In this document: piece by piece, positions 33,334-63,518 of the stretch
How the letters are laid out: each line of letters opens with the position of its first letter
Position numbering within the stretch: position 1 is the first letter of the stretch
NCBI GenBank assembly: GCA_903813345.2
Contig: CAIIXF020000009.1
Location: forward strand, 1,922,001-1,986,000
Direction: 5' to 3'
Source of the DNA: Owenia fusiformis
Lineage: Eukaryota; Annelida; Polychaeta; Sabellida; Oweniidae
Length of the DNA stretch: 64,000 nt
Notes under the pieces: model-generated
Told to the model about the DNA's origin: nothing
Databases searched by the model: none
Seen by the model: the letters and a program-made list of their open reading frames with translations, nothing else
Translations under genes and position numbers: made by a program

Positions 33334-33474
33334 ATGCCATGAGGAGGTCCACAATCTTCCCCGTGATCGCCTTACTCGTCATCCTGCTAGCTGTTATATT
33401 ATGTTTCTTGGGCCATTGTAACCAAAAGAAAAAAGTTCTGACATTTTTGTCAGGCATATTCTTTGTCGTTGGAG
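33334..33474 (+). CDS. CACNG: CACNG/TARP-like gene 1, penultimate coding exon (TM2 to start of TM3)
   Basis: This exon encodes part of a four-pass calcium-channel gamma subunit or AMPA-receptor auxiliary protein. It follows a tttttcag acceptor and ends at G|GTCAGT, giving 141 nt, which as I recall is also the size of the equivalent exon in vertebrate CACNG2. The translation begins AMRRSTIFP, the position of the conserved RASSIFP segment that opens TM2 in stargazin. A hydrophobic TM2 of about 21 residues follows, then a short basic loop (NQKKK) and LSGIFFVVG, the start of TM3, which is close to the gamma-5/7 form. Both flanking introns are phase 1. The upstream exons (TM1 with the GLW motif, and the short cysteine exon) were not found in the preceding 33 kb and probably lie outside the window. 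Family assignment is firm; subclass is inferred. Confidence 0.92.
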
Positions 33475-34914
33475 GTCAGTACTTTTCATTTCACTAAAAT
33501 AAGCTATATTTAATCTTTAAATGTGTTCCCTGAAATATTATCTTATATTATATGACTTATATGGAATATGGAAACTCGAAATGGAGCGACCTTACATTTT
33601 CATATCATAGCGACACGAGTGGGTAGCGAATGATCACAGTATCATTAGAAGTAGCTTTGTTTTGTCTCTTACTTTTATCTTCCAGCCAAGTTTACTTTTT
33701 AATGTCCTCTGGCGATTAAAATCATTACGTTCTGTTTATACTGGAACAAGTGGCTTCGAGGATTTTTTGGAGTCAATTTGATTAAAAAAGGTGAATTTCG
33801 TGACCTATTGACCGACTTTAGATTAGTTGAAAATCCAAATCCAAAGATCGGTTTTTAAAAATCTACGGAATTTTTCTCTCCATGGTCACGATGGTTGTTA
33901 TGAGAAACGTGATGGCTTGAAATAGGTATAAATTTGATGATATTCATGTTGACTCATCATAATCCTTGATCTTGATAATGAAAAAATGCCATTTTATTAT
34001 GTCTACAGATTCAATCAGTTATATATTTACAAGTCATTCAATTACGCGATTGTATCATACACGAGGCCGGCCGTTGTATGTGACCATTGATCACCACTAG
34101 ACACAATGCGTGACTAAAATGCAATGATAACCATGCTAGATTCTAATCGAGTTAATTGAAATCTACAAATCTTGTATGATTATTACCGATGCACAAAACT
34201 GAATAATCGCACACATTTGTAATCTAAAAAGCTAGCTACATATAGTCTTAACTTGCCCAAAGCGCCTGTGACTTCCCACACACACCTGGAAGTGAAAGGA
34301 ATCAGGGGTCCAAAGGCTCATTGAAACACTTACGAACTACGACCTTGTGATAATCTGTACAATATAAAAAAATATCATTTTATTATGTCTACGGATTCAA
34401 TCAGTTATATATTTACATTCAATTACGCGATTGTATCAGACACGAGGTCGGCCGTTGTATGTGACCATTGATCACCACTAGACACAATGCGTGCCTAAAA
34501 TGCAATGATACCCATGCTAGATTCTAATCGAGTTAATTGAAATCTACAAATCTTGTATGATTATTACCGATGCACAAAACTGAATAATTGCACACATGTT
34601 TAATCTAAAAAAGCTACTATAGTCTTGCCCGAAGCGCCTGTAACTTCCCACTTCTCACACACACCTGCAAGTGAAAGGATAGGCTCATTGAAATACTTAC
34701 GAACTACGACCTTGTGATAATCTGTACAATATAGCATTAGAAACAATTGCGATGGTAGATACATCGTCAGTGAGTAAATGTGGACCAATATTTAAAAAAA
34801 CCTTGACTTTTGCAATATCTTAACAAGGCCGAAATGCAATTAACCAATGTGTCCAGCGTCCATTATTGGATCAATATCTATTCCACTGTATTCACCATAT
34901 TTTCTTTTTTGTAG
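33475..34914 (+). other. Last intron of gene 1, with a 386-bp tandem duplication
   Basis: This phase 1 GT-AG intron separates the TM2/TM3 exon from the terminal exon, so the split falls inside TM3 as in vertebrate CACNG genes. About half of it is a two-copy direct repeat, annotated separately. No other coding signal is seen. Confidence 0.9.
33990..34740. repeat. Two-copy tandem duplication, period about 386 bp
   Basis: The block starting TATTATGTCTAC at 33995 recurs at 34381 with only scattered differences and small indels, through to TCTGTACAATATA in both copies. The high identity suggests a fairly recent tandem duplication within the gene 1 intron, close to the terminal-exon acceptor. Confidence 0.9.
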
Positions 34915-35498
34915 GTTTGCTCGTCTTAATCGGAATTATACTATACATAGGAGCTATAACAGAAGAGTCTGGGACGAAACCTAAGGGGACATTAAACGGT
35001 CCCAGATTTAAATATGAATACGGTACTTCTTTTATGCTCTGTGTGGGAGCGTTTGCATTGACAGAACTATCTGGTGTTCTCTCCGTATATCTATACATAT
35101 CGAAGCATAAACATGCGTATCGTAAGAAGCAAGAACAATTAAAGCATCTTAAACGCTTAACTACTATGATAGACTGCAATAGTACGGAGACGCCGTTGAC
35201 AAACCATACAGCGGCATTGCCACATGGTCACCAGCGTCTCCGACGTGGATCCCGCTCACGTGGGTCATTATCTCGACGAAATTCGCTAAATTCTCGTTCA
35301 CGTGATCATTCTCCGACGCATTCCGAGACTTATTATACTTATACACCTGTATCTGATCACAATAGTCGTGAGATGTCAAATTTCACTTTACATAAGGACC
35401 CATCTAGAAACACACTTGCTACAACAGTTGATACACACATATCTCGTGAACACTCTAGCCATTCAATGGATACCTTAAGGAGAACAACACCTGTGTAA
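34915..35498 (+). CDS. CACNG: CACNG/TARP-like gene 1, terminal coding exon (TM3, TM4, cytoplasmic tail, PDZ ligand)
   Basis: The exon follows a ttttttgtag acceptor after a 1,440-bp intron and runs in frame from exon 33334-33474 to TAA at 35496-35498, giving 193 whole codons. Residues 1-13 finish TM3 (LLVLIGIILYIGA). Residues 14-38 are the second extracellular loop, ending in the conserved YxYG motif (KYEYG). Residues 39-61 are TM4, with TELSGVLSVYLY, very like gamma-5/7. The tail from residue 62 is basic and carries an Arg/Ser-rich block (108-130, with RRGS and RRNS sites that suit PKA or CaMKII-type kinases), a segment matching the stargazin-type tail (EMSNFTLHKDP, 152-162), and the C-terminus RRTTPV. 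That end is a class I PDZ ligand and equals the stargazin C-terminus that binds PSD-95. In vertebrate TARPs this tail controls synaptic anchoring; the same role here is inferred. Confidence is high for family and stop, moderate for function. Confidence 0.95.
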
Positions 35499-36505
35499 CG
35501 ATTGTCAGTTTTAGAAGATTCAAATCTACACATTTTAAGATGAATCCTCATTATTATAGTCTCAACCTCTACTTTGATTAAGTTTTGAATAAGCATTTTA
35601 ACGTAGGTTGTGATTAAGTGAAGAAAGATGAAAACGCTTTTCATGGGTTTTGAACCCAGAGTGTGATGGTTTAGCTACTTCGAACATTGTTTGACGAAAA
35701 TAATTGAAAAATCATTCTCAAATTTTCATCATAACACTAAATCCTTGTGAATAATAAGGGCTTTACCTTGTTTCACGCATATTATAAACCGTTACAAAGA
35801 AGTATTAAGCAACTTAAGCATTATTCTAATATAACCTGTCCGAATGTGTGTTTGCATTTCTGATAATTAAAACAATTGGGGTTAACGATCAATACAGAAA
35901 ATATTGACATAGGTTTTTGATATGGAAAAATATGGAAAAATCGAATCGTTTGATCGTACCGAGAATGTAAACCCTTATAAACCCTTTTGTACGATCCTTG
36001 AAAATATAGAACCATGTTGTTCATTAGATCATTGTATGTAAATATATTGGGGGACAATTTGATGGGGCATTTTTGACTTCAACAGTACTCAACAGAGGAA
36101 ATCACCACTGTCCCAATTCCTTCCTGGTTCCAGTGAAATACAAGAATCCATTTGAGATCAAGTTGCTCACTTACATACAATTGTAAACATGATATGTTTT
36201 ACAAGATTTGTAATTGTTTTAAAATGATCGAATTACACACAGGTTTTATGACTCATTGAATGATGAGATGAGACGCATAATCTTCCTAATGAAATACAGA
36301 TTTACGTACACGTTCCCTTCCATAAGTTTGGCAGACGAAAAATCCTCTTTGGATCACATACAAAAAATGTTTGATGATGTAAGAAGCAATCATCAAAGTC
36401 ATAATTAAGGAGAAATAAGATATTCAAACATTGACAGGAGAGGCTTTAATGTATAATAGGATTCATTTGTATTGATGCCCTAAAGCCAAACGTACATCAA
36501 CATTA
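35499..36505 (+). other. Downstream flank / 3' UTR region of gene 1
   Basis: Non-coding sequence follows the TAA of gene 1. I cannot fix the polyadenylation site. Confidence 0.5.
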
Positions 36506-36618
36506 GGGAGTTTAAGCTTGCAATGTTTTTTTCACAACCTAAACTTGATACATTTGTATGGGTGACTGGTCATACGTATAGGTTGGCGTTTCAATTTTAT
36601 ATGCAAGCTTAAACTCCC
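36506..36618. mobile_element. GGGAGTTTAAGC MITE, copy 1
   Basis: The left end GGGAGTTTAAGCTTGCA pairs with the right end TGCAAGCTTAAACTCCC. Internal GGTCATACGTATAGGTTGGC is shared with the copy at 48787-48922. Confidence 0.85.
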
Positions 36619-38264
36619 ATATAAAATAAAAAAAACTATATGTGTTATCCAGTAGAAACTTTACTTCCGATTGCTAAACATATGAAGGGGGGTGTATATT
36701 GCCTTTTAATATATATGGAAAGGCACACATATTCCATTGTCGTCATTGTGACCACGAATACTATAAAGTTATCACAAAATGTACAGTTTAAATGTGATGG
36801 TTGAATGTTTGTATTTTGAAATTATGCAATTTGTATATAACAGTTATAGGTTCTTCATTTTGATAGGTACAATGTACACCATTTAGATGTCGTGGCGTAG
36901 CTGTTTGTATGATTCAAATTAACATGATTAAGTTTATGTAAATTCCTATTTTAATCACCGTTCAATGATAAAGTAAAAATGAATAGCAAAATTGCTCATC
37001 AATCAAACGTCTCTAACTTGAGCTAGCGGGGTTCATTAAACGGCTGGTAGTGAACATCTTTAGATTCTAGATTACTATTGATTGAATGGCGTTCAGGAAG
37101 AAGATATAGTATACTTAAAATTAGACTGCTATTCAAGAAGCTCTATACACACAATAAGTTAAACTAAGGGGATCTTTCGAGTTAATTTATTGGACTAAAA
37201 AGCAATTATACCGAGAGTTGATCACTTATATCCTTTGAAGATCGATGCTCATTTTACAAAGTCCAAAAATTGGAAATAATTTGACGTATTAACAAGTTAA
37301 TAGCTATGGATACCATTAGTCCTTCATTACAAAAAATAAGTCATTATCAAATACCGAATTTATAATTAGCCACTTACTCACACGAAGATGGCAAATTATC
37401 CGAAGGTCGTACGAGAGGCCTGTCACTTTTACGTTTTTTATATGAGTAGCTTTTTGAGTCAATTTAGATGGCACATCAGTATTGGTGTAATATGAAGTAC
37501 TGTAAATATGTTGTAATATCTGTGATGCGTGGAAAAAAGTTTGCCTATAGTTATTCCGTTAAAATTTACCGTAACTGGGATATTTGCAGTCATGGGATAC
37601 ACCATCGTTTACGCTCTAGTGTGAATGTCATTTATTTTGCTAGATATCTATCGACTAAAAAGCTAATTATCTTAAAACATATGAGCATCTTTAAAATTTG
37701 CACTTTAAGGACATCCGTTTATAGAACCTTGGCGTTCGCAATTATAAGGCAACCTGATTTTATGTTCGTGCGTTACTCAAGTTGTCAAGTACCGCCTTGG
37801 TACCAATATCCCTGTATGTACATTTGTCACTATGGTAACCACATTGTCATCACCATATTTTAATCACCATGGTGTTCACCCATATAATGAGAATACATGC
37901 ACGTTCTTCACCAACGTTTTAACGCCGTGCACCATTATGGGTTTTATACTCTTTACTTTGACCTTTACCTTGAAATTCATAGCATCAGGTTTTACATGAG
38001 TATATCACCAGGATTTTCAGATATGTATCAAAAGGCTTTATGGGACAATCCCAACTCCGCATTGGATCATTTTTTGGGGATAATTCTCTAAAGCCTTATT
38101 ATGTTCAAGTTTAGCATTCATTTTTTTAATTTGTCAAGCATAAGCAGGCTTTGGCACACGATCCAAATAGAGGATTTGATGTTGCCAAATATTTTTCGGG
38201 GGGTGTATTTGCTACAATAATCACGATATTGTTCACACTAACACGTGGTGGAACTCTTCAAACT
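36619..38264. other. Intergenic non-coding stretch
   Basis: The ORF 37468-37863 (131 codons) has no family resemblance and AT-driven composition. Nothing else was recognised. Confidence 0.4.
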
Positions 38265-38515
38265 GTTTTTGCAATCAGATCCGTTTTCGTAACAAAATGT
38301 CGCAGCCTCGAGAGGACGATTTTTCTTTTTCCATGTCGTGTCGTAAACTGTTCGTTCCCAAACGATAAATACTGTATTTTCTTAAACAAATGGTGCTGCC
38401 AACTTTTTGGAAAATGGTTCCTTGAGATTCTGCCTACATCTCGTGAAATCATGGAAGAGGAAAATCGCAACTTTGAGGCTGTGACATTTTGTAACGGATT
38501 CGTATCCTTAACCAG
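38265..38515. mobile_element. Fold-back element, family shared with 46184-46682
   Basis: The left arm (GATCCGTTTTCGTAACAAAA, then TGTCGCAGCCTCGAG) pairs with the inverted right arm (TTTTGTAACGGATTCG at 38488). ATTCTGCCTACA and CGTGAAAT inside also occur in the second member. The 133-codon ORF across it is a by-product. Confidence 0.75.
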
Positions 38516-39603
38516 ATTAAATAATTCTGCCATGGTTACTAGGAAGGTTTAACTACCATGCGCTTGTATGTCATAGAATGTAAATACAACATAATTGTAA
38601 ATGGAATATTGTAATAAATTATGAACGAAAATCCAAGAATTTGGATATTACTGTTTATTTTCCTACTGAGAAATCCCCTTGATTTTGCAATAATGGACAA
38701 AAATCTACTGGTGTCAGTTCGTCCAAAACCATTTTATCCCAATAGACCTTTCCCAGTAAACACTGCCACCTTTTGGTAATCAAGGAAGCTACGATGTGTC
38801 CTATTTGTGATTGAACAAATTGCGACCTCAACCAATAACAATCATAGCTCCTTTGATTGAATAAAAGGCAGTAGGGTATATTGGAAAGGTCTATCGGAAC
38901 TTGATCTAAGACGACTGTGGGTTGTTAAAATTTTCCATTTGAAGAATAAAGATGTCAGACACATCCAATACAATAGCTTACAGAAGTATTTTGACGGAAA
39001 TGGAAATATTTCAGAGGTTTCATAAATGTAAGTATTTTAAAATCGTATCTATATTTTACGCAACATGGGATTTTTCAACTAGATTTTGAAAGAAAGTTAC
39101 GTCCAATCTTATATAAAATATAAAAATATCTATAGGGTGGGCAAAAATGGAACACTAACATATATTTTATATTAAAGAGCAAGTGAACCAAAGTCATGAA
39201 AACTGGGACATATAAAGTTTTATAATTTACCTTTCATATAATACTTTTGGTTCATTCCCCCATCCAACCCCCCCCCCCCCCCGATAGCCAGTCGCGGAAT
39301 CTGTCATTCGGTAGGCTAGTCCGTAAGAAGCGTCTCGATTAATATATACTGTGCCATGTCGATGAGAAAACTCTTCCATCTATTCGTGAACATATATGTT
39401 TGCTCTATACTACGTCTACGAGTATGTTCATTTTTCGCGCTTTTGTAATGTCACATCCAAAACACGGTATATAACCCAAACGCTCTTACATGCATCATCA
39501 CATCTAAAAGAGACTCGACCTGTCAAATTTAAAGAAAGACTTCCACCACACGCGCCACTTAAAAGAAAAGACATTTACAAGAAGAGAAAAATTGCCGCTT
39601 ATG
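38516..39603. other. Intergenic non-coding stretch with poly-C run
   Basis: Poly-C occurs at about 39269-39282. No gene was recognised. Confidence 0.45.
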
Positions 39604-40016
39604 TTTTTTAACGGACTAAAAACTCTCTAAATGCGCATTTATGCTCTTTTCTCTCGAGAACGACTGTCTAGGATAAAATAAGCATGCCAAACTTTGTGAC
39701 AAAGAATTTCATCAGCTATTGCCCCGAACCGGTCCGTCTTCTCGCTGCAAGCAGATTGCCCCGAACCGGTCCGTCTTCTCGCTGCAAGCAGGATGAAATT
39801 CTTTGTCACAAAGTTTGACATTTTTTATAAAATCAAATGCGCGTCATTGAAACTCACAAGATGTAAATAGCATGTCATTTACATCATACCTTGATGGGGA
39901 AAGATAGATCTTATATGTTAGAAGTACTAAATAAAAGTTATCGTGAAAATGAGACAGTCGTTCACGAGAGAAAAGAGCATAAATGCGCATTTAGAGAGTT
40001 TTGGTCCGTTTAAAAA
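39604..40016. mobile_element. 413-bp MITE with nested hairpin and internal 38-bp duplication
   Basis: Outer arms of about 65 bp (39604-39669 and 39952-40016) share ACTCTCTAAATGCGCATTTA. An inner 25-bp inverted repeat (39689-39713 and 39792-39816, AAACTTTGTGACAAAGAA) encloses two direct copies of a 38-bp unit containing GCCCCGAACCGGTCCGTCTT. Confidence 0.92.
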
Positions 40017-42764
40017 TCTGTAAAAAATGGGGGTACTTAAAAGCATCGGGAGGCATCATATATTTCAAATTAGACACGAGGAAGTCAATATTGAGCAAGT
40101 TATGGCTATTTTAAATTCAAATAAAACCGTTAACCCGTACCGGTCCAGCTTTTGACCCGTACCGGTCAATTTTCGTTAGCTGCGTATACCAAGGGTGGAA
40201 TTTAAAAGAGATTAAGAACCTGTTGCGTCTTAAAGGTATCGATTTTAATCTTCCGTCACATATTAAAGGGACTCTCAAAAATGTATCATCTCAAAGGAAT
40301 ATATTTTAATTACCTTTCACATTTAAAAGCCCCTATAACTAAATGTCACTGGTAAAAAGGGTCCCCATTATCTGTCACATATGAAAAGGGACTTCCATTT
40401 CATCTAAAATGGACTTTATCTTTCACATTAAAAAGTAACCGGAAGTTCATTTCGCATATAAAAAGGAAGTTTCATCACCTTTCACTTTTGACAAAAGAAC
40501 GTTAACATCTATTGAGAGACATTTCATAACCTGGTACATACAAAAGAGAGCTTATCTTCCATTATCTATAAAAATTACTTATTTAATTCATATCTGGAAA
40601 AAATAGGTTTGTATAATGTATATTCATTCAGGTTTCCATAGTTACCAGTATACAGTATCATTAATGAATTGCTTCCTTTGATAAATACAATTCCCTATTT
40701 ACTTTTTTTAATAACATAAATAAACATTGATTATTATAATCATAGAAATGAATAAGAATGTCAAATATTGCATCGATTAAACGAACGGAGACACTTATTC
40801 ATATGAAGTCACGTCTTCGATGACTGATCATGTTCAGAGATGCGATGTTTGAACAGGTGTAAATACAATGCGCAACAGATAACGTTGATCCATGGATGCT
40901 TGATCACGCCGTGTGGGAATAAGCGCAGAGGTAATAAGCGCAGATCTCGCTAAATCAACTAGATTAATACGGATTGTTCCCAATGGGCACTAAACCATGG
41001 AATGTCACTTAAGAGAGATGTGAGATGATGAAGCTCCATCATAAGCGTAATAAACGATCATATCTCTAATACATGTGGATAATATCAGAGATGAAGAAAT
41101 ATAGATACACTCAGTGGGTGTTTAATATATAGGACACCAGACACCATTCCGTTAGATGTTACTGAAAACTAGCTACATGTACCTACCAACCATGTTTTAC
41201 CTAGAAAGTACATAATGCTTATTGTACAGACAGTCGACTTCGATCAACACAATGGATATCTAATATTGAAAGCACAATATTTTTTTTAAATATAAAAAAC
41301 TAATATAACATGAATCCAGCTAGTCTAAATTACACAAGATGCGTCCCGGATTGATTTCGATTATATAGCGACCTGGAAAAGAATATGCGCTTTGCACATG
41401 CGCAAGGCCAATCCAATTCAAGTTACCATATTAAGAAATAAATAAGGATTTCATACTATGTGGAACAGTCCGGCGTCGGACAATTTAATTGTACTAATTG
41501 CAAAAATGGCCGGCCATCACAATTTATCAAATGAGACATGATGAACCTTCTCATTGTTTTGAATTATCGATAATGAACCATCACCCTGATAAAATAATCT
41601 AAGGGGGATAAAAACGTTTTTCATTTCTGAAATTAGCTGTATACAGGGCACATATTTCCCCCTGTTGACCCCGGCCGCTATTGGACTGTCCCAGTCTAAT
41701 TTTTCAATTTTCATTATTTAGATTATCGGTCTGGTCTGCTCGAAGAAAGAAATATTGTTTGTCAAACAGCTACCAGAGACTAACTCTTGATTTCAAGCCA
41801 GATGCTCCAGAATGAATGATAGACATAGGCGGATAATCATTTAATCTCCGTGTACAAAAGCAATCTCAAATAAACATACAGGAACTTGATGCTCTGGTTC
41901 TATTTTTAGAGCAATGTGGCAACGCATTTTTATCGTCTCTAGCTTAGTCATTCTCAAATACTAACTCCTTTCAGACATCAAATATGAATTGTGATCCTCG
42001 TCGCTTTTAAGGGGCGTGCTGTTGTTCAGTCTCAGATACACATAACAGCACGGTATCACTGAATATCGAAAGGGCTAAAATTACAGTTTTTCTTGTTCTG
42101 TATTATCTGTAATCAGGCAGGACGGTATCAAACCTAACCATATGTTATGGGAGAGTTTACCAGGACTAGTACAGCACCAGGAAATATCAACCTATTGTTG
42201 GAACTATTCTCATCACATCGTCGTGCAAGTATCCTAATATAATTTTGATGCCGAGTCTCACGATTATCCATTAGCCGGAATTACAGTTTTTCAATTTGCC
42301 TTTTTGACGTGATAATGCACTTTGGCCCGCGAGGGAGCTACCGGGTCCGAAGTAACAGTAGCCGACACGGGTGTAAACCGCATAACTTAACGAAATAAGC
42401 GCCATGAAAAGAAAGCAAAAATGTAGACATAAACCTGAGGGCAACACAACGTTCCTTGGTTTTAGCTACAAACAGATTTAGAACGCCGCACCAGAAACAC
42501 AAGCTCTGCTTGTTGAAGCTATCACTCTTGGTTTGTCTATACAGGTAAAGCAGAACATACAAGTTACTTGGGTAGCTGTTAGTCGTACAATGTGATTTTG
42601 TATCTTAATTGGACGGATCAAACAAGGATTATCATATCTTAAAATGCAAGTGCCATGACCTGAGACAAGATACCGAAAAAACTAAAAAGGGACCTACTAA
42701 AATAACACCAGATGCTGGATTACAAACAGTAGATCATTTCGAAGTACACCAAAAACTCTGCAAA
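40017..42764. other. Intergenic spacer upstream of gene 2
   Basis: It includes irregular repeats around CACATxxAAAAGGGACT (40250-40550). The promoter or non-coding first exon of gene 2 may lie here, but I cannot place it; no convincing TATA box or initiator stands out. Confidence 0.4.
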
Positions 42765-43026
42765 ATGAAGTGGCGTAGGGAAAGTAACAAACTGCCTTGG
42801 GACAGTGTCAAATTTGATAGGAGATTACTTACTGTGATGACAGGTTTGACCTCGTTCGCCATTCTTATTATGATTATAGCAGTGGGGACAGATTATTGGA
42901 TAGTACTGACAATCCCGGGGGGAGCGTGGAGGAACTCAACTCAAATGTTCGTGACGGGGACAATCTCTGGTCTCTGGAGAATATGTCGGAAGGAAGTAGA
43001 CAACTTCAAAAATCCGACAACCTCGC
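42765..43026 (+). CDS. CACNG: CACNG-like gene 2 (gamma-1/6-like), first coding exon (N-terminus, TM1, GLW motif)
   Basis: The exon encodes the N-terminus and first extracellular segment of a second calcium-channel gamma-family protein. I chose ATG 42765 (context CAAAATGA, A at -3) as start because it gives a 22-residue cytoplasmic lead before TM1, usual for the family. The frame stays open upstream to about 42609 with no other in-frame ATG. Residues 1-22 are basic, 23-41 form TM1, GTDYW is at 41-45, an NST glycosylation sequon is at 57-59, and SGLWRIC is at 68-74, carrying the claudin-superfamily W/GLW/C signature. The exon ends at C|GTAAGT (phase 1; codon CGA completed by the next exon). Wording such as YWIVL and GLWRIC recalls gamma-1 and gamma-6 rather than the TARPs. 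Family assignment is firm; subtype needs a tree. Confidence 0.93.
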
Positions 43027-45409
43027 GTAAGTTAAAACACAATCTATTATACTCAATACATAATATCAAATTGCTATGCAAGAGTACATCCCACATAATA
43101 ACTATATACCATCTCCCTAGTATCCCCTTCCATAAACCACAAGGCCCATTGCGTAATGTTCCCGATTAGAAATAAACATTCCTTCACATAGTATATATTC
43201 CCTCGCAAATGATGCACCCCCATTCATAAATAACAAGTTAACAATAACTGTTTCCGGGATGCATGTCTGTCAACCCAATTCAGATTGTCCATCATCCCAT
43301 TGTCAATATCAGTCAGGTTTATTATCGATCTGGTATTATATTATTATAAAAAGCAAGTACATCTCAACACTGTGCTGAACATCATACGCAATATAATAGA
43401 ATACACTATCTCTAGTACATGTTTTACCAGCTGTTAGTCAAGACCGTCTGGTTATGATAATCGTTCCTGTGAATCTGGAAACAGGAGTTGAGAGCTCAAG
43501 GTTTCAAAATAAGCAGATAGTTGAAATTTGTTTTTTCACCATGTTCACATTCATAAAATGATAGTATGAGTGGGTAACAGAAAATGTTGTGTATGCATTC
43601 TAACAATTAAGTAAAGAGTAAATAAAGAAACTATCAAAAACATATACAGAAAAGGGAACATGACGAAAAACACCAACATCCCAGCATTTGATATTTATTT
43701 TATTATTTTATATCTATTTTTATATCTATTTTTATTGTTTATTTCTTTGCTTAAAAAGTGTTACCTAAACTACATGACACGCATATTGTGTTCTCGTTGT
43801 CCGGATAGAATATACAGATTTTAAACAGGGAGCGAGATATTCTTGTAAGAGGGAGTTAATCCAATTTAAGATTCAATGATCCACCCCTAAATTGCAACAG
43901 CACCGTAAAAAATTAGCAGATGCAGAATAACAGAATTACGTCAAAAATACTTAAAATCTGATCTGGATACCAGTAGGAATAACTTGCAAACAGAGAGGTA
44001 CATGTAGAAAGTACGAAATGAACCTCAGTTAAAAACGTCGAACTTTACTCGCTTCAAATCTCCGATCATACTCCTAAATAACTTTCCCGATCACAAAAAC
44101 TTAATTGAAAGATGTCGATCAAGCTGCATGAGAGATACATGTTTTAAACATCACCACTCTCTTTCCAATCTCCCTCGGGGGACGTAGGGCTAAAATAGCT
44201 ATAGCGTGAATATGTCTCTTTGCCTAATGATAAACAATGTACACCTCCCATCAAAAGTTTGGTTATTCCAACACTGATCAATTGGACAACTTGTTTGAGT
44301 TTCCTGTTGAAATCCTCAATATTATACAATACGAATATAAAATCAGAGACAAATATTCTTTTTCAAATAAGAAAAACATACGGGACACAAAACACATGAT
44401 CCAAACGGTTAGTCGGTCCTGGCCTGCTAGATTTTTGGAGGGGAGTACAGTGATAATTCATGTATGCTTGAAGAGAAAACTCAGATTGCAAAATGCGCTC
44501 AGATAACCAAGGTCGGCGTGAACAAAACTATTAACTGCTCATAAATTCTATATTACGTAATTGACTGCATATATTTTAAATATGAATCAATAAAAGAGCA
44601 ATAATAGGATAAAATTAAAATAAAACAGAATGCAGTAGTCGGGAATAAGATAATGGATAGCTAGAAATGATTATACATACACAATTCAAAAAATTCATTG
44701 TGTTGAGGGTGAGAGATATTGTTGACAGGTCTAAAATACGGGCAGATACAATAGGCCTAGATTAGAATTAAACCGTTCAAATAAATCCTGGCTCATTTTG
44801 ATAAAGCATTGAAACTTGGGTATTGGCTGGTTTAGAAATGTGATACATAAGAAGATTCACATTGATCCTATCATAACTGAGATAAATATTCCAAAATTAG
44901 AGTGTTGTATTTTTGTGTCATCCTGTACAATCGAAATACCCGAAGTTTCGCAAGAACGTCGTCATAAGATGCTTAATCAGCATTTACCAGTATTAGTTGA
45001 TATTGATGATTCATTTTTACTTCAAACACTGAATGTTAGTCACACATCGAGTGCTAGAGTTACCTATCACGCATTGTGATTTTGTCAGTAAGTCATGCAA
45101 AACGAAGTTTACAAATGTTATTTGACTATGGCAATCATAAAAGTACCTATTGATGACTTGTACAATTTAACAAGAGAGAAAGCCTACATAGGGAATGGTG
45201 AGCCACATTCTTCTCCGTTCTTTCCATTACTTCAAAATATCAATTTAAAATAAACAAGCGTTTTGCTATAAATATCAATGCGTATTCTATCAGCACTGTA
45301 CGATGTGGTCCTTCGATTGCATATTTTTAGAAATTATATACTTTCATCACTTTCACCACTTTTATCACTGCCTGGGGCTGTATGTTCTCTGTATGTGTAT
45401 GTAAATGGA

Positions 45410-52818: not shown

Positions 52819-53205
52819 AGAATTTGTACATGACAAGCTATCCAAAACCAGTGTGGCACAAGAGACGATTGATTGTCACATGCAGTGCCCTAAAGCTGAA
52901 TTAATTTCAAGGCACTCTATAGTAAACACGAAAGAAATCAAATTTCAAACTGTACCTGGCCATGACCTGTTACATGCAGTGCACCGAAGCTGAACTAATT
53001 ACACCCACTCATTTCTCGCACTTACCCCATATACGTGTATAAAAGAAATCGAACTTTCCCAGTCCATTTACCTTCCATAAGATTCAGTGTGGGATTTAAC
53101 TTAGATAAACCATTCGCACTTGGTCTAAGGAGAACCAATAGCCTTGGGTTCAGGCCCTAGGCAAGTATTCCTTCCTAACACCGTACTCATAATTTATCTA
53201 GACAG
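52819..53205 (+). repeat. Dispersed repeat, copy B (partner at 6165-6490)
   Basis: It has the same ordered blocks as copy A with small insertions. CTGTTACATGCAGTGCAC and CCATAAGATTCAGTGTGGG are clear landmarks. Confidence 0.85.
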
Positions 53206-53686
53206 AACTCATCTTGGTTTATATATTGTTTGCTTCCTTTACTGTACGGTCTGCCTTTTAAAATATTCGGCGTTTTTCTTGTACCTTAAATCTGCTCTTA
53301 GAATGTTCCTTTTATTAATGAATGTGTGATGCTCTTTGGTATTTTACCTTTTGGCACTTGGACTTGCATATATTTACCAGAACATGCAATCTATCATAAA
53401 ACACGCCAAATATTTCCAATTAATATTCTAATATATTCGCAGGTCTGATAAAACGACCCTATGAATAACGCAATAGGTGGTACTCGTAGCAAAATCCCCG
53501 TAGATTTACAAACATAAATGCATTAATCTTAATTGTCGACAGTACTCCTGGGACATCTCAGACGTTATCTGACTATTTGATTTAGTAGAGGATCAGTTAT
53601 GAATGATTGGAGGTGGCTTAAAACAATCTCCATCGACATCCGGGGTCTTCACCCGACTGTTCAATATCCAAGAACTTGCTCGTAAT

Positions 53687-53724
53687 AGAGAGAGAGAGAG
53701 ACAGACAGAGAGAGAGAGAGAAAG
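53687..53724. repeat. GA microsatellite
   Basis: An AG-dinucleotide run is interrupted by ACAGACAG. Confidence 0.98.
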
Positions 53725-53979
53725 GAATACCCCAGAATTCATAGATGAATCTAAAATTGACAATGTAAACATGAACGTAATCGTAATTTACCATATACAA
53801 TAAAAACTGGTCTTTTACATAAGAAAGCGAGTAATTCACAACATTACAAAGTTGTAGAAACACACATCATTAATATGAGAGTTTTCATTCCGTTGTTCAA
53901 CTCTTCATCCATGGATGTCGTTATGACTAACAGGGACATCGGGCCTTAAATGATCCAGGACTCTGAAAGCATAAAACGG

Positions 53980-54270
53980 TCGCAAAGCACTCAACCAGAC
54001 TTGAAATCACAGAAAGACTCAACACCAGACTCTATAATGACAAAAAGACTCTACATAAGATTTAAAATGACAAAAGGCTCTATACCTGACTTTAAATCTG
54101 GTTTTAAAATGACACCATGACAACACTTTAAATGATAGACTGGCTCCACATCGCACATGACACAAAGCTAGACTACACCCGACTTTAAAATGAGAGGAAG
54201 ACTCTTCACTTGACTTAAATGACAGGAAACTTCACCAGACTTTAGAATTACAGAGAGACTCTAATGGCAG
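53980..54270. repeat. Degenerate repeat around AAATGACA...GACT
   Basis: Units like TTTAAAATGACAAAAGACTC and CACCAGACT recur irregularly about every 40 bp. Confidence 0.6.
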
Positions 54271-54404
54271 AAACCCTAGACCTAGTTTTGATTAGATGTA
54301 CATTTCGAATAAATCTTACTTATTTCAACTAATAGATCAGCCCAGCTGTTGAAGGATGAAAGCCAATGATGTTTCACTAAGGAATAAGAGGGGTAAATGA
54401 GAAA

Positions 54405-54565
54405 GGTTTTAAGACAACTCTTCCCAAGACAACTCGTCCCAAGACAAATCACCCCTAAGATAACTCGTCCCAAGACAACTCACCCCTAAGACAACTCGTC
54501 CCAAGACAACTCACCCCTAAGACAACTCGTCCCAAGACAACTAATCCCTAAGACAACTCATCCCA
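54405..54565. repeat. 31-bp tandem array, about 5 copies
   Basis: Alternating half-units AAGACAACTCGTCCC and AAGACAACTCACCCCT give a 31-bp period. Confidence 0.95.
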
Positions 54566-56559
54566 CTTGTAAAATTCGTAAATAAGTTTATCCTGTATCA
54601 ACATTGTAATATATATTTTGTATTTAAACATTAATTTGAATTCAAAATTAGTCCGAAAAACGAAATTCCTAAAAAATTCATTTTTACAGCGTGGATTGCC
54701 AAAATTTCTAAAAATTACTCTGTAAAGCTAGGAAATACGTATACAATATTTACGCAATCTGCTGTAATGAGGGATATAGGGGCAAGGACGTTGTCTCTTA
54801 CTCAGTGATATGTGTCCCCTTCTAATTGAGTAAAACCCAATAAGGAAATCAATGGCCAGAAATTAATTGTGAAAATGGCAGTAAATATGGTCAGTTAGTA
54901 ACGAAGTTGGAGGATATATTTGCCTTGTACTCAAATTACGTTAAGACATTGGATAAGCAAATCAGACAATCTTCTATTCTGCTCCGCGTTGTGTAATATC
55001 CGTTAGGATATAGATACACATATAAAGCTCATCGAGGCAATTATTTTTCACTGGTAATCGGGTAATATTTAGCTTAAAGTGAAATGTCTATATTTTGTCA
55101 CTTAAAGTGTTCCCCTTTTAACCAATAAACGTGTTATTAATTTCATTTAAAAAGGCATCTCATTTTAGAGGCGTTCTGTGTCATGTGTAATATGAGTTAC
55201 GGATTGCACTTGCCATACGTTTGACCAAATATGTATGTTGATGAATTCTTGTAAATTCTACACTCTCCTCCCGGCAACAGCTTTCTGACCATATGTTATA
55301 TTTTTAGAGATTAAAAATCACCAAACATTTATCTTTCGGACATTATGTAATCGAGGAGAGCATCATAAGAGAAAACTATTTAAAACACTTTAATTGGCTA
55401 ATGAAGAGTAAAAGTTTAACAAACTTTTTTTGTGGAAGTAACAATTGCAAAAATAGAAAATTACTGCTTATTTCTAATATGCTTCTGGTCTAGTTAGCCA
55501 GGTAAGATGCTATCTGAAGCATTTTCCACAGGTGCAGACTTATTTACCTACTTATCTGCTGCATGGTTACGTTCTGGTTTCATTATTTCCATCATGTTAT
55601 GTGTGGTGAAAATGAACTACTGTTGTGGTTTACCTTGAAAACTTTCCATTTTGTATGGTCATGATTAATTAGGACATGGCGCAAACTGACGAGAATTTAG
55701 TCAGGATGCTTTTTCATTTTAGCCAAGATAAGATCTAGCTGCATTGCACACTGAAATTGACTGCATTTCTAGCTATGTCTCATATCTCTGGAAACACTTT
55801 GCTTTAACATTTTAGGGAGGTGAAGTGTGTAGAAAAGGGGATGTGAAATACACGTGAAACGTAAACGGAACGAAATTCCCCGCATTGTCTAATATAGCAG
55901 AACCAATCTATTTTTAGATAATGAAAGAACTAAGTCGATGGGGATAGTTCTTAATGCTATATGTACTTCTCAAGTATTGCTTTAGAAACGCGAAATGGTT
56001 CCGCCTGGCGAATTTCATTAATGTGATTTTGTATCTGATATGAAAACATGCTTATCTAACTCACAAGGCGGATTAAACCGACGCCCTTTACTGATCCAAG
56101 AAAACTCTATGACACAAAAATGAATTGTGGTTAAACACGATGGCATTTTTCGAAGGGGACAGCATCTTTTCCAATCAATCGAGGTTGGGCCATGCAGCCG
56201 AAGGTAAGCCATACAACCGAAGGTAAGCCATACAACCGAATTTTGCCGATTCAATCTGACGGAGAATGCCGAGCCCCTATTTTTGACCAGTTAGAGACCT
56301 CCTCTTCACATTCGTGGTACCCTCGGCCAACTTCGTTTGCAAAGAAAAGCTTCGGCAATCTTCGGCAATCTCCGGCTTTTCTTGAGGCATCTTCGGTTGC
56401 TTGCCAAAAGTCGACACCCTTTTTCGAAGACCAGAAAGCAGTAGCACTACGTGGCCCTAGAATAAGAAATGAAATGTTTAAAATGTCACCTAGCGTGGTT
56501 TTTATGTGTAGTGTACACTGTCAAGAATTCGATAACTTTATATTTGCACATACCAAGAC

Positions 56560-56680
56560 GTGTCTAGCTACAAGCCTTTGTGACCCCCTCCCATCCCCAC
56601 TACAACAATTTCTGTGTGAGAATGTGTATAGTCAAGAAGTGGGGGGTCACAGAGGCTTGTAGCTACATGTAGACTAATAC
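56560..56680. mobile_element. Hairpin with 36-bp arms
   Basis: GTCTAGCTACAAGCCTTTGT at the left pairs with ACAGAGGCTTGTAGCTACAT at the right, and the loop side has CCCCAC / GTGGGG. It overlaps the tail of a 156-codon ORF (56192-56662) that I consider non-genic. Confidence 0.8.
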
Positions 56681-56782
56681 CTAGACGTGAGTAAAGCTAA
56701 AATGATGAGGACGCCACAAACTTTAAAAGGTGAATTTCAACAATTTTATTAAATCATTCCCATGCCTTTGGAATATACATTA

Positions 56783-56935
56783 GAGAGTTAAGCTACGCGT
56801 TGTTAAGTGAATTTGTACGTGAATGTGTCAAACTATGGTTCATAGAAGATGAGAAAATTATTTGATAGAAGGGCAGTAATCAATTGGGCCAAATTGATAC
56901 ACGTTCACGTATAGGTACGTGGAACTTAATTAGTT
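56783..56935. mobile_element. Degenerate relative of the GGGAG-TTAAG MITE family
   Basis: The left end TAGAGAGTTAAGCTACGCG followed by GTACGTGAATGTG resembles the start at 62681. The right end (TACGTGGAACTTAATTAG) is poorly conserved. Confidence 0.45.
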
Positions 56936-57965
56936 ACCAGCTGAAAGGTCTATACTAACGTGTTTGCCACATCTTATAATCGTATCCGTTGGAAATCTAA
57001 GAATTAAGATTCAAGCCTTGTTATTTAGGTTTGTGTTAATGTCATCCATGACATTCATGGTTGATAGTTAATCGTGTTTTCTTGATTTCGTAATTCATTC
57101 AAAAATAGTTACGCGATTGCTTGTATTACTAATCAATAAAATTGAAGATCGAGTTTCCGAGTTGTTGGTTTTCATAAGAGGTTATAGATCATTGCTCCCG
57201 TAAACAGTTTAAGGCCTTCACGAATTAATTCTCGGTTTAACATCGGCTACCTGTTCATTCAAAACCTCCCCTCGGCCAATCTGTTTACCGGTTGTTAATC
57301 ACTTCATTCCATAGTGAAAAATAAGTGAAGCCTTTTGAATGAAGGATGCTTATAAATATCTATTTTATGCCAAGTAGAGTTTAAGGGAGATAAGGAGGTA
57401 AAGTATATCCCGTATCCCGATTTGAGGTTTCTCTATCCAGAACCTCCATATCTCCTGCTTTAATTTCGTTTATGCCTACGCCACCGTTCGGAATAAACAA
57501 CGTATGGGATTTGCCAAGGCTGATTGCTGTGGGCAAAGGGCTGGGGGTCTGTGTTTTAGACTCTGTAGTTCATCTGGTTCTATTTTTCCTATCTTTGACA
57601 GTTATTGGTATTTATGGGACATATCATTGCGTGATCATTTAGGAAAGTAGACGAGTTCTGTTCATTTCATTAAATATTCAATCAGTTAGAAGTTATTTAG
57701 TCCTACGTATGGCCCCAGCGAGTCTAATGTTGGAGAGCCACTTCACTTTTATATCTCCAGTCGATGGTCTTGATATAAGATTGATGACGATCTTGGAAAT
57801 TGTCCTTACTACACCATAACAGAATAAAAAATCTGACAGATCCAAGGGCCAATGAAAATGCGTGACAGAAGTAATCAATGGCAAACTGTGGTAAAATACG
57901 AAATCAAATATATTATATTTTAGATTTGTAACCTACATAAGCTTCGTTTAACGGCCGAAATATTA

Positions 57966-58000
57966 TACAGAGTGTTCCAAAAAATTGCAACTTTTTTAAA
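57966..58000 (+). mobile_element. Solo mariner-like terminus
   Basis: TACAGAGTGTTCCAAAAAAT with the following TTGCAACTTTTTT resembles a Tc1/mariner terminal repeat and the terminus at 20618. No matching right end was found downstream. Confidence 0.4.
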
Positions 58001-58409
58001 AGGCTAGAAAAGTATCGTCATAAAAAAAGATTTACAGAAACTCAATGATAGGTATAAAAACGGCAAATCTCGGACACATATGGGACCATTTATATTCATA
58101 GATATAACTTCAGTCGTTTGTTTTCTGTGATAGTTTGTATGTTTACTCTGTTTTATTCCATGTAATGTCTCGATAAAGACTTGCAATTGCTTGTTATGTA
58201 ACAATGTCGATTTCTCATTGCGTCTACAGCTCTATCCTATTAGATGATCACAAATCAGGAAGGAACTCGTCCACACCATAACACGCTAGATAAAGCTAAC
58301 GCAATCTAATGTGTGATTGCTTATTGGATTGCGTTGTTTTATTTCGGCCTCTGGCCAAGGAGGATTGGCCCCAGAATCGAAGAAGATATTTTCCAACAAT
58401 GAAAACGCC

Positions 58410-58560
58410 GAAATGTCGTTATTTTCTGAAATCATAACCGATTATAAATTCAAAATAAACAGTTCAAATGATTCAAACCAATATTTCTTGTGAGTTCTCA
58501 CGATTCAAATGTTGAAGTGAACAAAATGGCGGCTGTTGGAATTCGAATTTTGTAGCACGA
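58410..58560. repeat. Dispersed repeat related to 45410-45780
   Basis: It shares GATTATAAATTCA, TTGAAGTGAA and AAAATGGCGGxTGTT in the same order. Confidence 0.65.
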
Positions 58561-58777
58561 CATCCCCATATAAGGGACAGGATATCGATGAAAGTCTTTA
58601 TAGTAACTATAAGGATCTCATCCAGGCGACTTGGGAGCCCTCGCCTCTATAGCCCAATTAGAAGCTGCGCTTCACTTTACGGTGAAATAAACATAATTCT
58701 AAATTGAAGTCAGCAAACGAATTTTACTTAACGGTATGAATAAACATATTCATATATAAAAAATAAGGGGTCGGGTT

Positions 58778-59278
58778 TACAATGAGTTTAGGCTTGACAT
58801 ACACTAGAATAGGAAACGGTAGAGTAAACACGACAACCTGCATGTACATTTGAAGCTTCGAAGATCATCCTGCATAAATATGAGGCCAATCAAAGATTAG
58901 CACTGTTGAGCATGGCGTTTACAATGAGTTTAGGCTTGACATACACTAGAATAGGAAACGGCAGAGTAAACACGACGACCTGCATGTACATTTGAAGCTT
59001 TGAAGATCATCCTGCATAAATATGAGGCCAATCAAAGATTAGCACTGTTGAGCATGGCGTTTACAATGAGTTTAGGCTTGACATACACTAGAATAGGAAA
59101 TGGTAAAGTAAACACGACAACCTGCATGTACATTTGAAGCTTTGAAGATCATCCTGCATAAATATGAGGCCAATAAAAGATTAGCACTGTTGAGCATGGC
59201 GTTTATAATGAGTTTAGGCTTGACATACACTAGAATAGGAAACGGTAGAGTAAACACGACGACCTGCATGTACATTTT
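58778..59278. repeat. 142-bp tandem array, about 3.5 copies
   Basis: AATGAGTTTAGGCTTGACAT occurs at 58781, 58923, 59065 and 59207, exactly 142 bp apart, with very few differences between units. ORFs at 59072-59399 read through the repeat. Confidence 0.98.
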
Positions 59279-60752
59279 CTATTTCCATGAGTTACCCACA
59301 AGATTATTCTTGCTGTTAGTAGATAAGCAGCCAATCATCTTCTATTTACGGGAAATAGATAAGATAAAGTTATCTTCACTTCTCGAATCACTTACATAAA
59401 ACTCAACCGAAATGTGAAATGAGGAAAATATTGTTCAGATAGTGTTTTGCTATGGATGTTCTCCACGGGGCCCCTTGTACTGAAGAGCATTATTTCGAGC
59501 AATTGCACGTCAAATGCAACCACACGATCATCTCTATTACTTTTGTAATTATTTCGACATCTTTAAAGGAACGATAAATAACAATTAGAGACGAATTAGA
59601 TTTGTCCCTAATTTACAAAATTTCTTACTCACAACATTAATGTTATGTCATGCCTTTTTTCAAAACGATAACTCATTATACATGTATGTTCTAAGTATGG
59701 TCGCTAGAATGCTACTTATGAGAGGAATTAGAACATTTTTACATCTTATAACTTTGCTTCTTCTAGAGAGTTTATAACTAGACTCTGCGCGCAGGGTAGT
59801 CAACGAACCAAGATGACAATATTTTAGTGTTTCACAATAATTTATGATTGGTCGTGGGAGTGAGTTTCTCTAACTTCAAACTAATACTAATTTGTCCTGG
59901 AATTCTTACAAGCGCCTTTCGACACCAAAACCACGCGTAGTATTTCGCGCTAATTGTAACTTTATATAGAAAGAGCTTTACGTCTTAGTGAAGCCTCACC
60001 ATTGATATCGTTCAACTCTACGGTACGTCTGTTTCTTAATGAGTTCACCCTAATGCCTCGGCCTAAGACATCTTCCGGAGAACCCGTGATCTTTTAGCAG
60101 AAGCACATGTCAGAAAAGACAAATTGGGAACTCTTGTAGAGAAGCCTTTGAAAATAGATATGATAACATTTACAATTTACCTCGATGAGAAAAGCGAGTA
60201 TTTCAAAATAAGTAAAGAATAACAAATAAAACATCTGCTGTCTTGAATTAAAATTACTATGTTTCTAGGAACCCAGAGAATAAAATATATATTTGAATAT
60301 CGCCTATGTTGCGCTATGGACCCCCCCCCTCCTTTCCTCATACACATATTTAGGCAGGTATATGCATACCTGTTTTTCGGTAAAAAAACAGTTTTTCTAC
60401 AAAATAATCAGTTGCCTGCCCAGAACAAATCACCGGAAATTAGTCAATTAACCGATATTTCGGAAAAAGTACAAGCAAACTCCAAAGGATATGGACATAT
60501 CTATAAAGTGAGAAAAGTTGAAATGAGTAGAAACCTGAATAAAACAAAGTATATTGAAATGTCCCCTTCATTATAACGAATGCGCATTTTAGGAGAGTCC
60601 TAGGAATGTCATAAAGTGTCCTTGGTAATCGTACTTCACTTGAGTTTTCAAAAGTGATATACCGGTAACTTAACATGCCCACTGTTGGTTGTATTTAGGG
60701 TAGTTTCGTTTCGTTTCGTGCAATACAAAAAATGGATTATTTTTATTTTCAG

Positions 60753-60833
60753 GAGAATCCTGCGAGTATCACAAACTGTTTCCTACAATGAAAGAGGTCA
60801 ATAGAGATCCAGAAGTAGATAAAATTATAATAG
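60753..60833 (+). CDS. CACNG: CACNG-like gene 2, second coding exon (extracellular loop, second conserved cysteine)
   Basis: This 81-nt exon lies between a TTTTATTTTCAG acceptor and an ATAG|GTAAGA donor. It joins in frame to the exon ending 43026 (split codon C|GA) and to the exon at 63381 (split codon G|AT). It encodes ESCEYHKLFPTMKE and then an acidic stretch ending DKIII. The cysteine (residue 91 of the assembled protein) is the expected disulfide partner of Cys74. The pattern CxYxxxF resembles the gamma-1/6 loop. The other frames of the exon contain stops. It is too short to show as a long ORF, but splice sites, phase and protein context agree. Confidence 0.88.
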
Positions 60834-63380
60834 GTAAGAGCTGAGATTGTAAAAATGAATGAAATGAATTTATTTACGGAAGTTAAATATTATGATTTCC
60901 TTTTGAAAGCTCAAACACGATATGTTACAGTTTCTACTAACTGTAATTCGATGGATGTTACAGTGCTTGATTGCTATAATTTGTTCACGGCGAAAGGGGT
61001 TCAATTTTTGGTGGCTGTTTGTTGTTTATTTTTCGGTGTTGCCACTCGAGTTTTCTGATTGAAAACAGATCTGATGAATTTTAATCAGAGCAGCCACTTA
61101 AAACGTTTGAAATACAAATGCCAAATTCGAAATGAAATTATTCCGACGATCCTAGTTATTCATTTTTTATCTTATTAATCGATCTAACTATTCAAAATAC
61201 ACGTTCGAGAATTATAAACAACAGGCTTATCTTCAGTGAAATTCGGTGGTTAGATCCCTTGCATGTGTCAGTTGAACATCATTTACATAAAGATCGTACT
61301 TTTCCAGACATGTACACAAACATGATGCGATCGCCGATCGGGAAACATGGAAGAAATGTAATTCGTGCTTTTTGAAGTCAGATTTTGTTCATGGTAGAAA
61401 CATCATTAGCAAATGCTGAAATAGACATTCCTTGATAATAAGACAGAGTCGTGTATTTTTGTCCACTTAAAGGGTGTATATTTGCTTCATGCGTTGAATA
61501 TTCGTCGACAGATGGTTCCTATATGGAATATATTCATCGCTGTCTTCCAAATTGATTTAGAATGCTACGATTTATTGCAAAAACTTATGTCGGACAAATG
61601 CCTTCTATCAGAGGGTAATTATTCACAGAACCAAGCAAGGGCTATATTATCTTTCAGCTGTGGTCAACTGTTGAAATATTTCCAATGACAGCGATATTAC
61701 CCATTTTACATCAATATTTTAGACAATCGTAGTCATTGTTCAGGATGTTTCGCATTCAGATATTCCACATATATGATCGTGTATTTTCTATGCTGGTAGC
61801 ATCTAAAATAACCAAGCAGCTAAAAGGTGTTTACACGAGACCTTGGGATACCCGGATGCATATTCCAGATACAAATCGTTATTCGAAAATTGGCAAATGC
61901 CAACGACGATCAGTTACTCTATATTTGGCTGGATGTGCACCTGCCAGAAGAAACATATGTATTCAAAACATTGCTAATTCACTGCCCTGGACTGCAGACA
62001 CATTGTTGGGGCATTCGGTACCTAGGATTTTTCCAAATGGGGTGCGACTACATCTACAAATATAGTATCCATCATCATACTTCAAGCCTTTTACATCCGG
62101 GGGAAAATAACTCACTCAAAAAGCAGGGGGTTGGGGTGGTTGAACCCAACGCACACCCTCCACTTCGGACACCCATATTATTGTGTACTCATATATGATT
62201 AACCTCTCGAGTCTTTAGCTCGTGACTAGACTTTAATTGCTCAACCTCTTGAACACCAACCTCTCAAAAGGGTTTGACTTTGAAACCAGGGCATTTTTCA
62301 TTTTTTGTTAGTTTTGGATATTCACATCTAAAAACACAATGTTTGATATTTGATTTAATAAGAATAGTAAACATAGACCAATTACATACATTTTAAAACA
62401 TAATTTGTGAAGATCAGATAAAAATTGCCAAAGTTAAAGCAGTTTTAATGTGAAAAATTCTGTGACAGATACATCTGTAGCTCTGGGTTCCAAATGCATT
62501 TTATTTGTGACAGATATATCCGTCATTCTTGGTATTTAAGAGGTTAAAAGGGCCTCGATATATCATAAGTTTGATCCAATCTAATATCAATTAAGAAACA
62601 AATCAAAGCAAGCAAGACTAAGCTATTTACAGGTAATATGTTTGTGTTGCCGAATTGAGAAAGGGCTGTAACACAAACATTAGGGAGGTTAAGATACACG
62701 TTTTTTAAAACTCGTACGTGAACGTGTAGTTAAGGTCCTCTGTAGATAATTAGTTCCTCTCATTTGTACTGTTTACTTGACCTGAGTATAAAGGTACACG
62801 GAATTATAATTCGTATTAGGTCCCAAGTGAATTGAGAGCGGGACATTAATCCCCGGGGGTCGAAATATTACACGTACAGGTTCTAATAAAAAATGTGCAA
62901 CTCAACCTCCCTAATAAAAAGAACATTACTTCGTAAATTATAACCTTATCAAGCAACTTAAGTAGCCTAAACCTACAATAGACAATGGTTAGATGGCATG
63001 ATTTCTTCTGTTTCTTAATAGTTCAATAAAAGGCAAAGAAGATTTAGGACATTGTAATTTGCAACGTTACGTCGAGCTTTTGTTTTAGAAATACTGAAAA
63101 TAGCACGTCCTTGGAATATCAAAAAGGCACAATACTGGATTATATCGTGATAGAAAATATTAAAAACTGAACCAGCTAATCAAATTTTGTCACATGAAAT
63201 TCATTTAGAGATCACTAATTTCGGTCAACATTTGCATGATGTTTTTTTCTCATTATTCAAAGTGTTATATCCACACGAATCCGGGCATCTCATTTTGGTA
63301 TGAATGCACCCGTTGTTATGACAATAGCATGTCCCTATACAGGCTCACAATAAAGCCAATTATTTTCGTTATTTTTCCAG
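60834..63380 (+). other. Intron 2 of gene 2 (2.5 kb)
   Basis: The intron begins GTAAGA and ends TTTTTCCAG, phase 1. It holds one TA-flanked MITE at 62683-62911. The longest ORF inside (61827-62198) resembles nothing I know and overlaps another frame, so I treat it as chance. Confidence 0.85.
62683..62911. mobile_element. GGGAGGTTAAG MITE, 229 bp, TA-flanked
   Basis: The left end GGGAGGTTAAGATACACGTT pairs with the right end complement GGGAGGTTGAGTTGCACATT, with TA on both sides (62681-62682 and 62912-62913). The ends resemble the elements at 36506 and 48787. Confidence 0.85.
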
Positions 63381-63518
63381 ATTACAGTCGCACTGAGACT
63401 GCGTTTGCTGTTATAAGTCTTCTGATTATGCTAGTTGGCAATGGTTTTGCCTTATATACCTTCAAAGAACATCGTTATATGTTTAAGAGGCTCACGGCGT
63501 TCACACATTTTGTTGTAG
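63381..63518 (+). CDS. CACNG: CACNG-like gene 2, third coding exon (TM2 to start of TM3)
   Basis: This 138-nt exon follows a TTTTTCCAG acceptor and ends at TAG|GTAAGT. It completes the split Asp codon from exon 2 and encodes YSRTETAF, a TM2 of about 20 residues (AVISLLIMLVGNGFALYTF), a basic loop (KEHRYMFKR) and LTAFTHFVVG, the start of TM3. It is the structural equivalent of gene 1 exon 33334-33474, with the same phases and nearly the same length. The loop YMFKRLTAFTHFVVG aligns best with the gamma-1/6 form (YLLRPASMFYAFAG). The last exon (rest of TM3, TM4, tail) is not in the remaining 482 bases, so the gene is cut by the window edge. Confidence 0.92.

Follow-up and report, generated by a model that had tools for sequence, protein, structure and literature searches.

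A TARP gene and a gamma-1/6-like CACNG gene in tandem in the annelid Owenia fusiformis, on the chromosome that carries the neighbours of the vertebrate CACNG clusters

Introduction

Vertebrate CACNG genes are arranged in the clusters CACNG5-CACNG4-CACNG1 and CACNG7-CACNG8-CACNG6, whose tandem origin is credited to Burgess et al. (1999, 2001) in PMC4042065. According to Ramos-Vicente and Bayes (2020; PMC7653359), the TARP, VDCC (gamma-1/6), GSG1 and protostome-specific subfamilies predate the bilaterian radiation, annelids have several TARPs, and Type I TARPs are suggested to survive in vertebrates only. Here we describe two CACNG-family genes, genes 1 and 2, in a stretch of 64,000 nucleotides from the annelid Owenia fusiformis (hereafter the window), which corresponds to positions 1,922,001-1,986,000 of contig C9 in a 498-Mb genome.

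Similar to the vertebrate clusters, this locus holds members of the family on one strand, with a TARP gene followed by a gamma-1/6-like gene, in the same ancestral linkage group. In contrast to those clusters, only two genes are adjacent here and a third (gene 3) lies on the opposite strand at a distance of 2.35 Mb, the neighbours that we tested are 3-35 Mb distant, and the gamma-1/6 identity of gene 2 is putative. The subfamilies themselves were reported from molluscs and annelids in PMC7653359; we did not find genomic arrangement or linkage in the sections of that article consulted. The reading that we favour, with confidence about midway between doubt and certainty, is that genes 1 and 2, a TARP and a likely counterpart of gamma-1/6, are CACNG-GSG1 family paralogues from an old tandem duplication, in a TARP-VDCC tandem handed down from the bilaterian ancestor.

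Results

Two CACNG-family genes lie head to tail

Six-frame profile searches, covering the window with 20 kb on its upstream and 40 kb on its downstream side, located the conserved exons, and a splice- and phase-aware scan with exon-2 profiles located the short second exons of genes 1 and 2. Both genes are on the + strand, head to tail, with a gap of 7.3 kb (35498 to 42765). Their exon models, second exons included, are predicted from the sequence as follows (window positions unless C9 is given):

C9:1916720-1916912 (+), gene 1 exon 1, 5.1 kb 5' of the window; MCYCGKRK...GLWKLCFTD
20052-20150 (+), gene 1 exon 2, 99 bp, phase 1-1; second half of the first extracellular loop (ECL1), KIGDSSLRQSQCKYISYFSSGDREDKTTTELVI
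33334-33474 (+), gene 1 exon 3, 141 bp; second transmembrane segment (TM2) and start of TM3; profile score 32.6 bits
34915-35498 (+), gene 1 exon 4; TM3, ECL2 (YEYGTSF), TM4 and cytoplasmic tail up to the RRTTPV stop; PF00822 match
42765-43026 (+), gene 2 exon 1; Cys-free N-terminus, TM1 and ECL1 up to GLWRICRKEV
60753-60833 (+), gene 2 exon 2, 81 bp; ESCEYHKLFPTMKEVNRDPEVDKIII; acceptor TTTTATTTTCAG, donor G|GTAAGA
63381-63518 (+), gene 2 exon 3, 138 bp; TM2 and start of TM3
C9:1987139-1987404 (+), gene 2 exon 4, 1.1 kb 3' of the window end; TM3, TM4 and short tail up to LGRV

Each gene has four exons, every acceptor is AG and every donor GT, and all three introns per gene are in phase 1. The joined open reading frames contain no internal stops (gene 1: 193 + 99 + 141 + 584 bp, 338 amino acids; gene 2: 262 + 81 + 138 + 266 bp, 248 amino acids). 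Exon 2 of gene 1 is bordered by the acceptor TTTCTTTCAG and the donor GTAAAT and joins exons 1 and 3 in frame. Exon 2 carries a C-x-Y-x-x-x-F motif in genes 1, 2 and 3 and in vertebrate gamma-1. Two other candidate second exons, at C9:1928266 for gene 1 and C9:1975129 for gene 2, were discarded for poor sequence or splice context. An earlier sequence-only reading of the window had described a same-strand CACNG pair about 7 kb apart with matching phase 1 introns, and our models agree with it on both points; its outer coordinates (33334 and 63518) fall exactly on splice junctions, although it covered only part of each gene, the exons beyond the window and the short second exons being added here.

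Repeats were also observed within the two genes:

20124-20317 (+; 48-bp unit) and 21236-22053, a 47-48 bp minisatellite; in the first array the unit copies the 3' coding end of exon 2 of gene 1 together with its splice donor
5000-5770 (77-bp unit), 15776-16752 (155-bp unit) and 58775-59277 (142-bp unit), near-perfect long tandem arrays in introns of genes 1/2

The first minisatellite array begins within gene 1 exon 2, and the frame stays open over several units (20006-20287). Each further decoy donor used could thus add 16 amino acids to ECL1.

Gene 1 is a TARP

Both products matched Pfam Claudin_2 (PF13903; gene 1: E=1.7e-24; gene 2: E=9.6e-20) as well as PMP22_Claudin (PF00822), both above the curated cut-offs, and both matched gamma-7 from the PDB (gene 1: E=5e-36; gene 2: E=3e-13). 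Each has the four hydrophobic segments, and the GLW and two cysteines of the ECL1 signature (W...GLW..C...C), expected of the CACNG-GSG1 family within the claudin superfamily. Membership of genes 1 and 2 in the CACNG family is far above chance.

Gene 1 matched gamma-7 at 127 bits vs. 28 bits for gamma-1, and scored 159.5 bits with a TARP profile vs. 41.4 bits with a VDCC (gamma-1/6) profile. Its long, Ser/Arg-rich tail ends in RRTTPV, which contains a class 1 PDZ ligand (TTPV), with the stop at window position 35498; TTPV is a mark of PSD-95-binding TARPs (PMC4042065). For the trees, all references were vertebrate, which is the main weakness of the analysis; gamma-1, 2, 3, 5, 7 and GSG1L came from PDB chains or were compared with them, and the sequences of human gamma-4, gamma-6 and gamma-8 and of two claudins were entered by hand. 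In all best trees gene 1 fell within the TARP clade (support 75-84), where it joined the Type I TARPs (88-93/90); the Type II alternative was not rejected by the approximately unbiased (AU) test (p = 0.065). Gene 1 is a TARP, as its tail and TM4 had led the sequence-only reading to propose. It resembles the Type I TARPs (gamma-2/3/4/8) in its claudin fold, tail, C-terminus and tree position, but differs from them in that its overall identity to gamma-5/7 is equally high (33%).

By homology, the product of gene 1 would be a four-helix claudin-fold auxiliary subunit whose TM3 and TM4 would bind AMPA-type glutamate receptors, whose ECL1 would tune the gating of these receptors, and whose C-terminal RRTTPV would anchor it to PSD-95-type PDZ scaffolds. 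From this homology we infer an AMPA-receptor auxiliary role for gene 1.

Gene 2 has gamma-1/6-like features and a divergent sequence

Gamma-1 and gamma-6 are reported to be marked by N-glycosylation sites before and after GLW, and lack both an N-terminal palmitoylation signal and TTPV (PMC4042065). Gene 2 resembles these VDCC-subfamily proteins in having a short tail (ending INLGRV) without a PDZ ligand, no Cys before TM1, a GLWRICRKEV that shares GLWRIC-x-K with the GLWRICTKRI of gamma-1, and the TM3 motif LEV that is found in both gamma-1 and gamma-6. With the VDCC profile, gene 2 scored highest of all non-VDCC rows (48.5 bits). In ingroup-only trees it grouped with gamma-1/6 at ultrafast bootstrap values of 79-91 (79/66; 91/93 when a one-residue gap in TM3 was moved; 90/93 without gene 3). 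All best trees left gene 2 outside the TARPs; a grouping of genes 1 and 2 was never best, being 1.6-9.2 log-likelihood units worse. The likeliest identity of gene 2 is that of a spiralian counterpart to gamma-1/gamma-6. If so, it would then act on voltage-gated calcium channels, as a small membrane auxiliary without synaptic anchoring and not as a synaptic TARP; homology makes this calcium-channel role probable.

Several observations weigh against this identity. The TARP profile scored gene 2 higher than the VDCC profile did (65.5 vs. 48.5 bits), and its best single match was gamma-7 (27% identity, 52.8 bits), above gamma-1 (24%, 37.1 bits). At 24 sites that split vertebrate TARPs from gamma-1/6, gene 2 has the TARP state at 7 and the gamma-1/6 state at 2-3. 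Unlike gamma-1/6, it retains the TARP-like G in Y-x-x-G-x-S-F and has no glycosylation sequon after GLW, where NPT is a non-sequon, with NST present only before GLW. When GSG1L and claudins were included as outgroups, gene 2 was the first branch on the TARP side, with gene 3, gene 1 and the vertebrate TARPs together to its exclusion (87/78; 83/85), and its grouping with gamma-1/6 was not the best topology, though not rejected (AU p = 0.16-0.39). The AU test likewise did not reject gene 1 + gene 2 (p = 0.11-0.38) or a clade of gene 2, gene 1 and the vertebrate TARPs (p = 0.10-0.30). The placement of gene 2 stayed ambiguous in three more trees from which rows had been left out.

Many of the TARP states at the 24 sites may be ancestral, since the vertebrate gamma-1/6 branch is long. 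Because the count at these sites nevertheless favours TARP states, and its placement is uncertain, we label the predicted product of gene 2 a divergent, gamma-1/6-like CACNG protein and do not file it as a subfamily member. The sequence-only reading had put the loop and TM2 of gene 2 closer to gamma-1/6, which is borne out locally (GLWRIC-x-K and phmmer stretches to gamma-1) but not over the whole protein, for which gamma-7 is the better match. It had also looked to phylogeny to set its proposal apart from a lineage-specific duplication of the two genes or a gene 2 nested within the TARPs; no best tree has either arrangement, but the AU test did not reject these alternatives (p = 0.10-0.38).

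One alternative, which we consider unlikely but worth keeping in view, would assign gene 2 to the protostome-specific CACNG subfamily reported in 2020 and not to gamma-1/6, in which case the tandem would be an old protostome or bilaterian cluster distinct from the vertebrate TARP-gamma-1/6 pair. Such a subfamily is described in PMC7653359, and gene 2 sits on a long branch at the TARP/VDCC junction with no clear allegiance; however, the ingroup trees favour gene 2 + gamma-1/6, and the order and direction of the pair are those of the vertebrate clusters. We find it improbable that gene 2 arose by tandem duplication of gene 1 or of another TARP, evolved fast, lost its tail and became gamma-1-like by convergence. 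The adjacency of the two genes on one strand, their equal exon phases, the TARPs as best pairwise matches of gene 2 and the AU result for gene 1 + gene 2 are all consistent with such an origin, but that grouping never gave the best tree, the two proteins are just 25% identical, and genes 1, 2 and 3 as a single lineage-specific clade were rejected (p = 0.02). It is highly improbable that exon 2 of either or both genes was misassigned or that one gene is a pseudogene: the second exons are short and were identified by profile and splice rules, with part of gene 1 exon 2 repetitive and the models predicted from the sequence, but every junction is canonical and in phase 1, the frames are open throughout, and C-x-Y-x-x-x-F recurs in exon 2 of all three genes and of vertebrate gamma-1.

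The pair shares its chromosome with gene 3 and with the neighbours of vertebrate CACNG genes

We searched the genome for further family members with gamma-7, gene 1, gene 2, gene 3, gamma-1 and GSG1L as queries, exon by exon, so that weak matches can be missed. Three family loci were found, genes 1, 2 and 3, all on C9; GSG1 was not found in this search, in which GSG1L was among the queries. The 'two-gene version' of the cluster put forward by the sequence-only reading therefore has to be amended, as the third member is on the same chromosome:

C9:4,337,641-4,350,050 (-), gene 3, a TARP-like CACNG gene (L016, 4640-5047), 2.35 Mb from the pair

Gene 3 has four exons with phase 1 junctions, a C-terminus of DTVIL and an acidic insertion in ECL1. 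It is nearest to gamma-5/7 (32-34% identity) and stood at the base of the TARPs in the trees.

cPKC genes adjoin three vertebrate CACNG loci, the neighbours of CACNG3 being PRKCB and RBBP6, and those of CACNG7-8-6 PRKCG, PRPF31 and CNOT3. CACNG1-4-5 adjoin PRKCA, HELZ, PSMD12 and BPTF in dog (PMC7143860); in chicken the neighbours listed are PRKCA, HELZ and PSMD12, without BPTF (PMC10976558). In goat, CACNG2 is beside EIF3D (PMC10762050). Using human neighbour and control proteins whose sequences were entered by hand, we observed that the best matches of all seven neighbours were on C9 (cPKC: 22.4 Mb; PSMD12: 5.3 Mb; BPTF: 17.4 Mb; RBBP6: 23.1 Mb; EIF3D: 36.5 Mb; PRPF31: 6.7 Mb; CNOT3: 18.9 Mb), as opposed to none of the four controls (HSPD1 and HPRT1: C7; TPI1: C1; PGK1: C2). 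C9 makes up 7.8% of the genome, and by our own arithmetic the chance of seven out of seven is ~2e-8. As all seven neighbours and no control map to C9, the pair belongs to the ancestral linkage group behind all four vertebrate CACNG regions. Close neighbourhood conservation was not seen among the seven neighbours tested, the nearest being 3.3 Mb off, and microsynteny with cPKC was ruled out, as it is also on C9 but 20 Mb distant.

Other features of the region and genome

A C-type-lectin-like frame (C9:1913474-1913995, +) lies just 5' of gene 1 exon 1. On the 3' side of gene 2, at C9:1994669-1999661 and 2011366-2013040 (-), there are related frames in repeated copies that look like DxD-type glycosyltransferases (IVEYGGTYIDNDVIALRSLDPL) and seem to form a tandem family. 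A histone 3' untranslated region stem-loop (RF00032, 39 bits) was found at window 29023-29067 (-) with no obvious histone reading frame adjoining; it is probably the remains of a histone gene or a random match. Elsewhere in the genome, the Hox cluster at C1 17.97-18.47 Mb contains Lox5 followed by a KLTGP peptide, two Lox2/Lox4-type genes and Post2, and a Post1-type gene is separate from it at C1:56.85 Mb. The KLTGP peptide and the Lox and Post types are spiralian marks and show the genome to be spiralian. Mitochondrial COX1 had no match in the assembly. The published O. fusiformis genome has 505.8 Mb in 12 chromosomes, with a Hox cluster on chromosome 1 and Post1 downstream (PMC9977687).

Discussion

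The sequence-only reading had proposed that both the TARP/gamma-1 split and the cluster predate vertebrates. For the cluster, this is backed by the linkage of seven out of seven neighbours and by gene order and orientation; the split is not new, since a pre-vertebrate TARP/VDCC divergence was already published in 2020 (PMC7653359). The locus contributes three things: a protostome example of the tandem linkage, the macrosynteny, and an RRTTPV-bearing protostome TARP that groups with Type I.

The arrangement of a TARP gene followed by a VDCC gene is probably as old as the bilaterian ancestor. An ancestral tandem is the most economical reading because the pair lies in the ancestral linkage group and has the order and direction of CACNG4-CACNG1 and CACNG8-CACNG6, suggesting that the human gene cluster began before vertebrates. 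To be set against this, a common chromosome dates the location and not the tandem duplication, and the antiquity of the tandem hinges on the uncertain placement of gene 2. More tentatively, and with clear doubt on our part, the bilaterian ancestor may have had a full vertebrate-type array on one chromosome, in which gene 3 stands for a Type II-like TARP, gene 1 for a Type I-like TARP with RRTTPV and gene 2 for a gamma-1/6 gene. The vertebrate genome duplications would then only have copied this array, and in O. fusiformis genes 1 and 2 would still be adjacent and in order, gene 3 having moved 2.35 Mb away.

Were the pair ancestral, the gamma subunits of calcium channels and the TARPs of AMPA receptors would have arisen side by side through tandem duplication before the protostome/deuterostome split, and the human clusters at 17q24 and 19q13.4 would be what is left of duplicated copies of that array. 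TTPV, the hallmark of Type I, would likewise be older than vertebrates, in conflict with the suggested survival of Type I TARPs in vertebrates only. The locus also provides a concrete place in an invertebrate genome in which shared regulation of the two genes can be tested.

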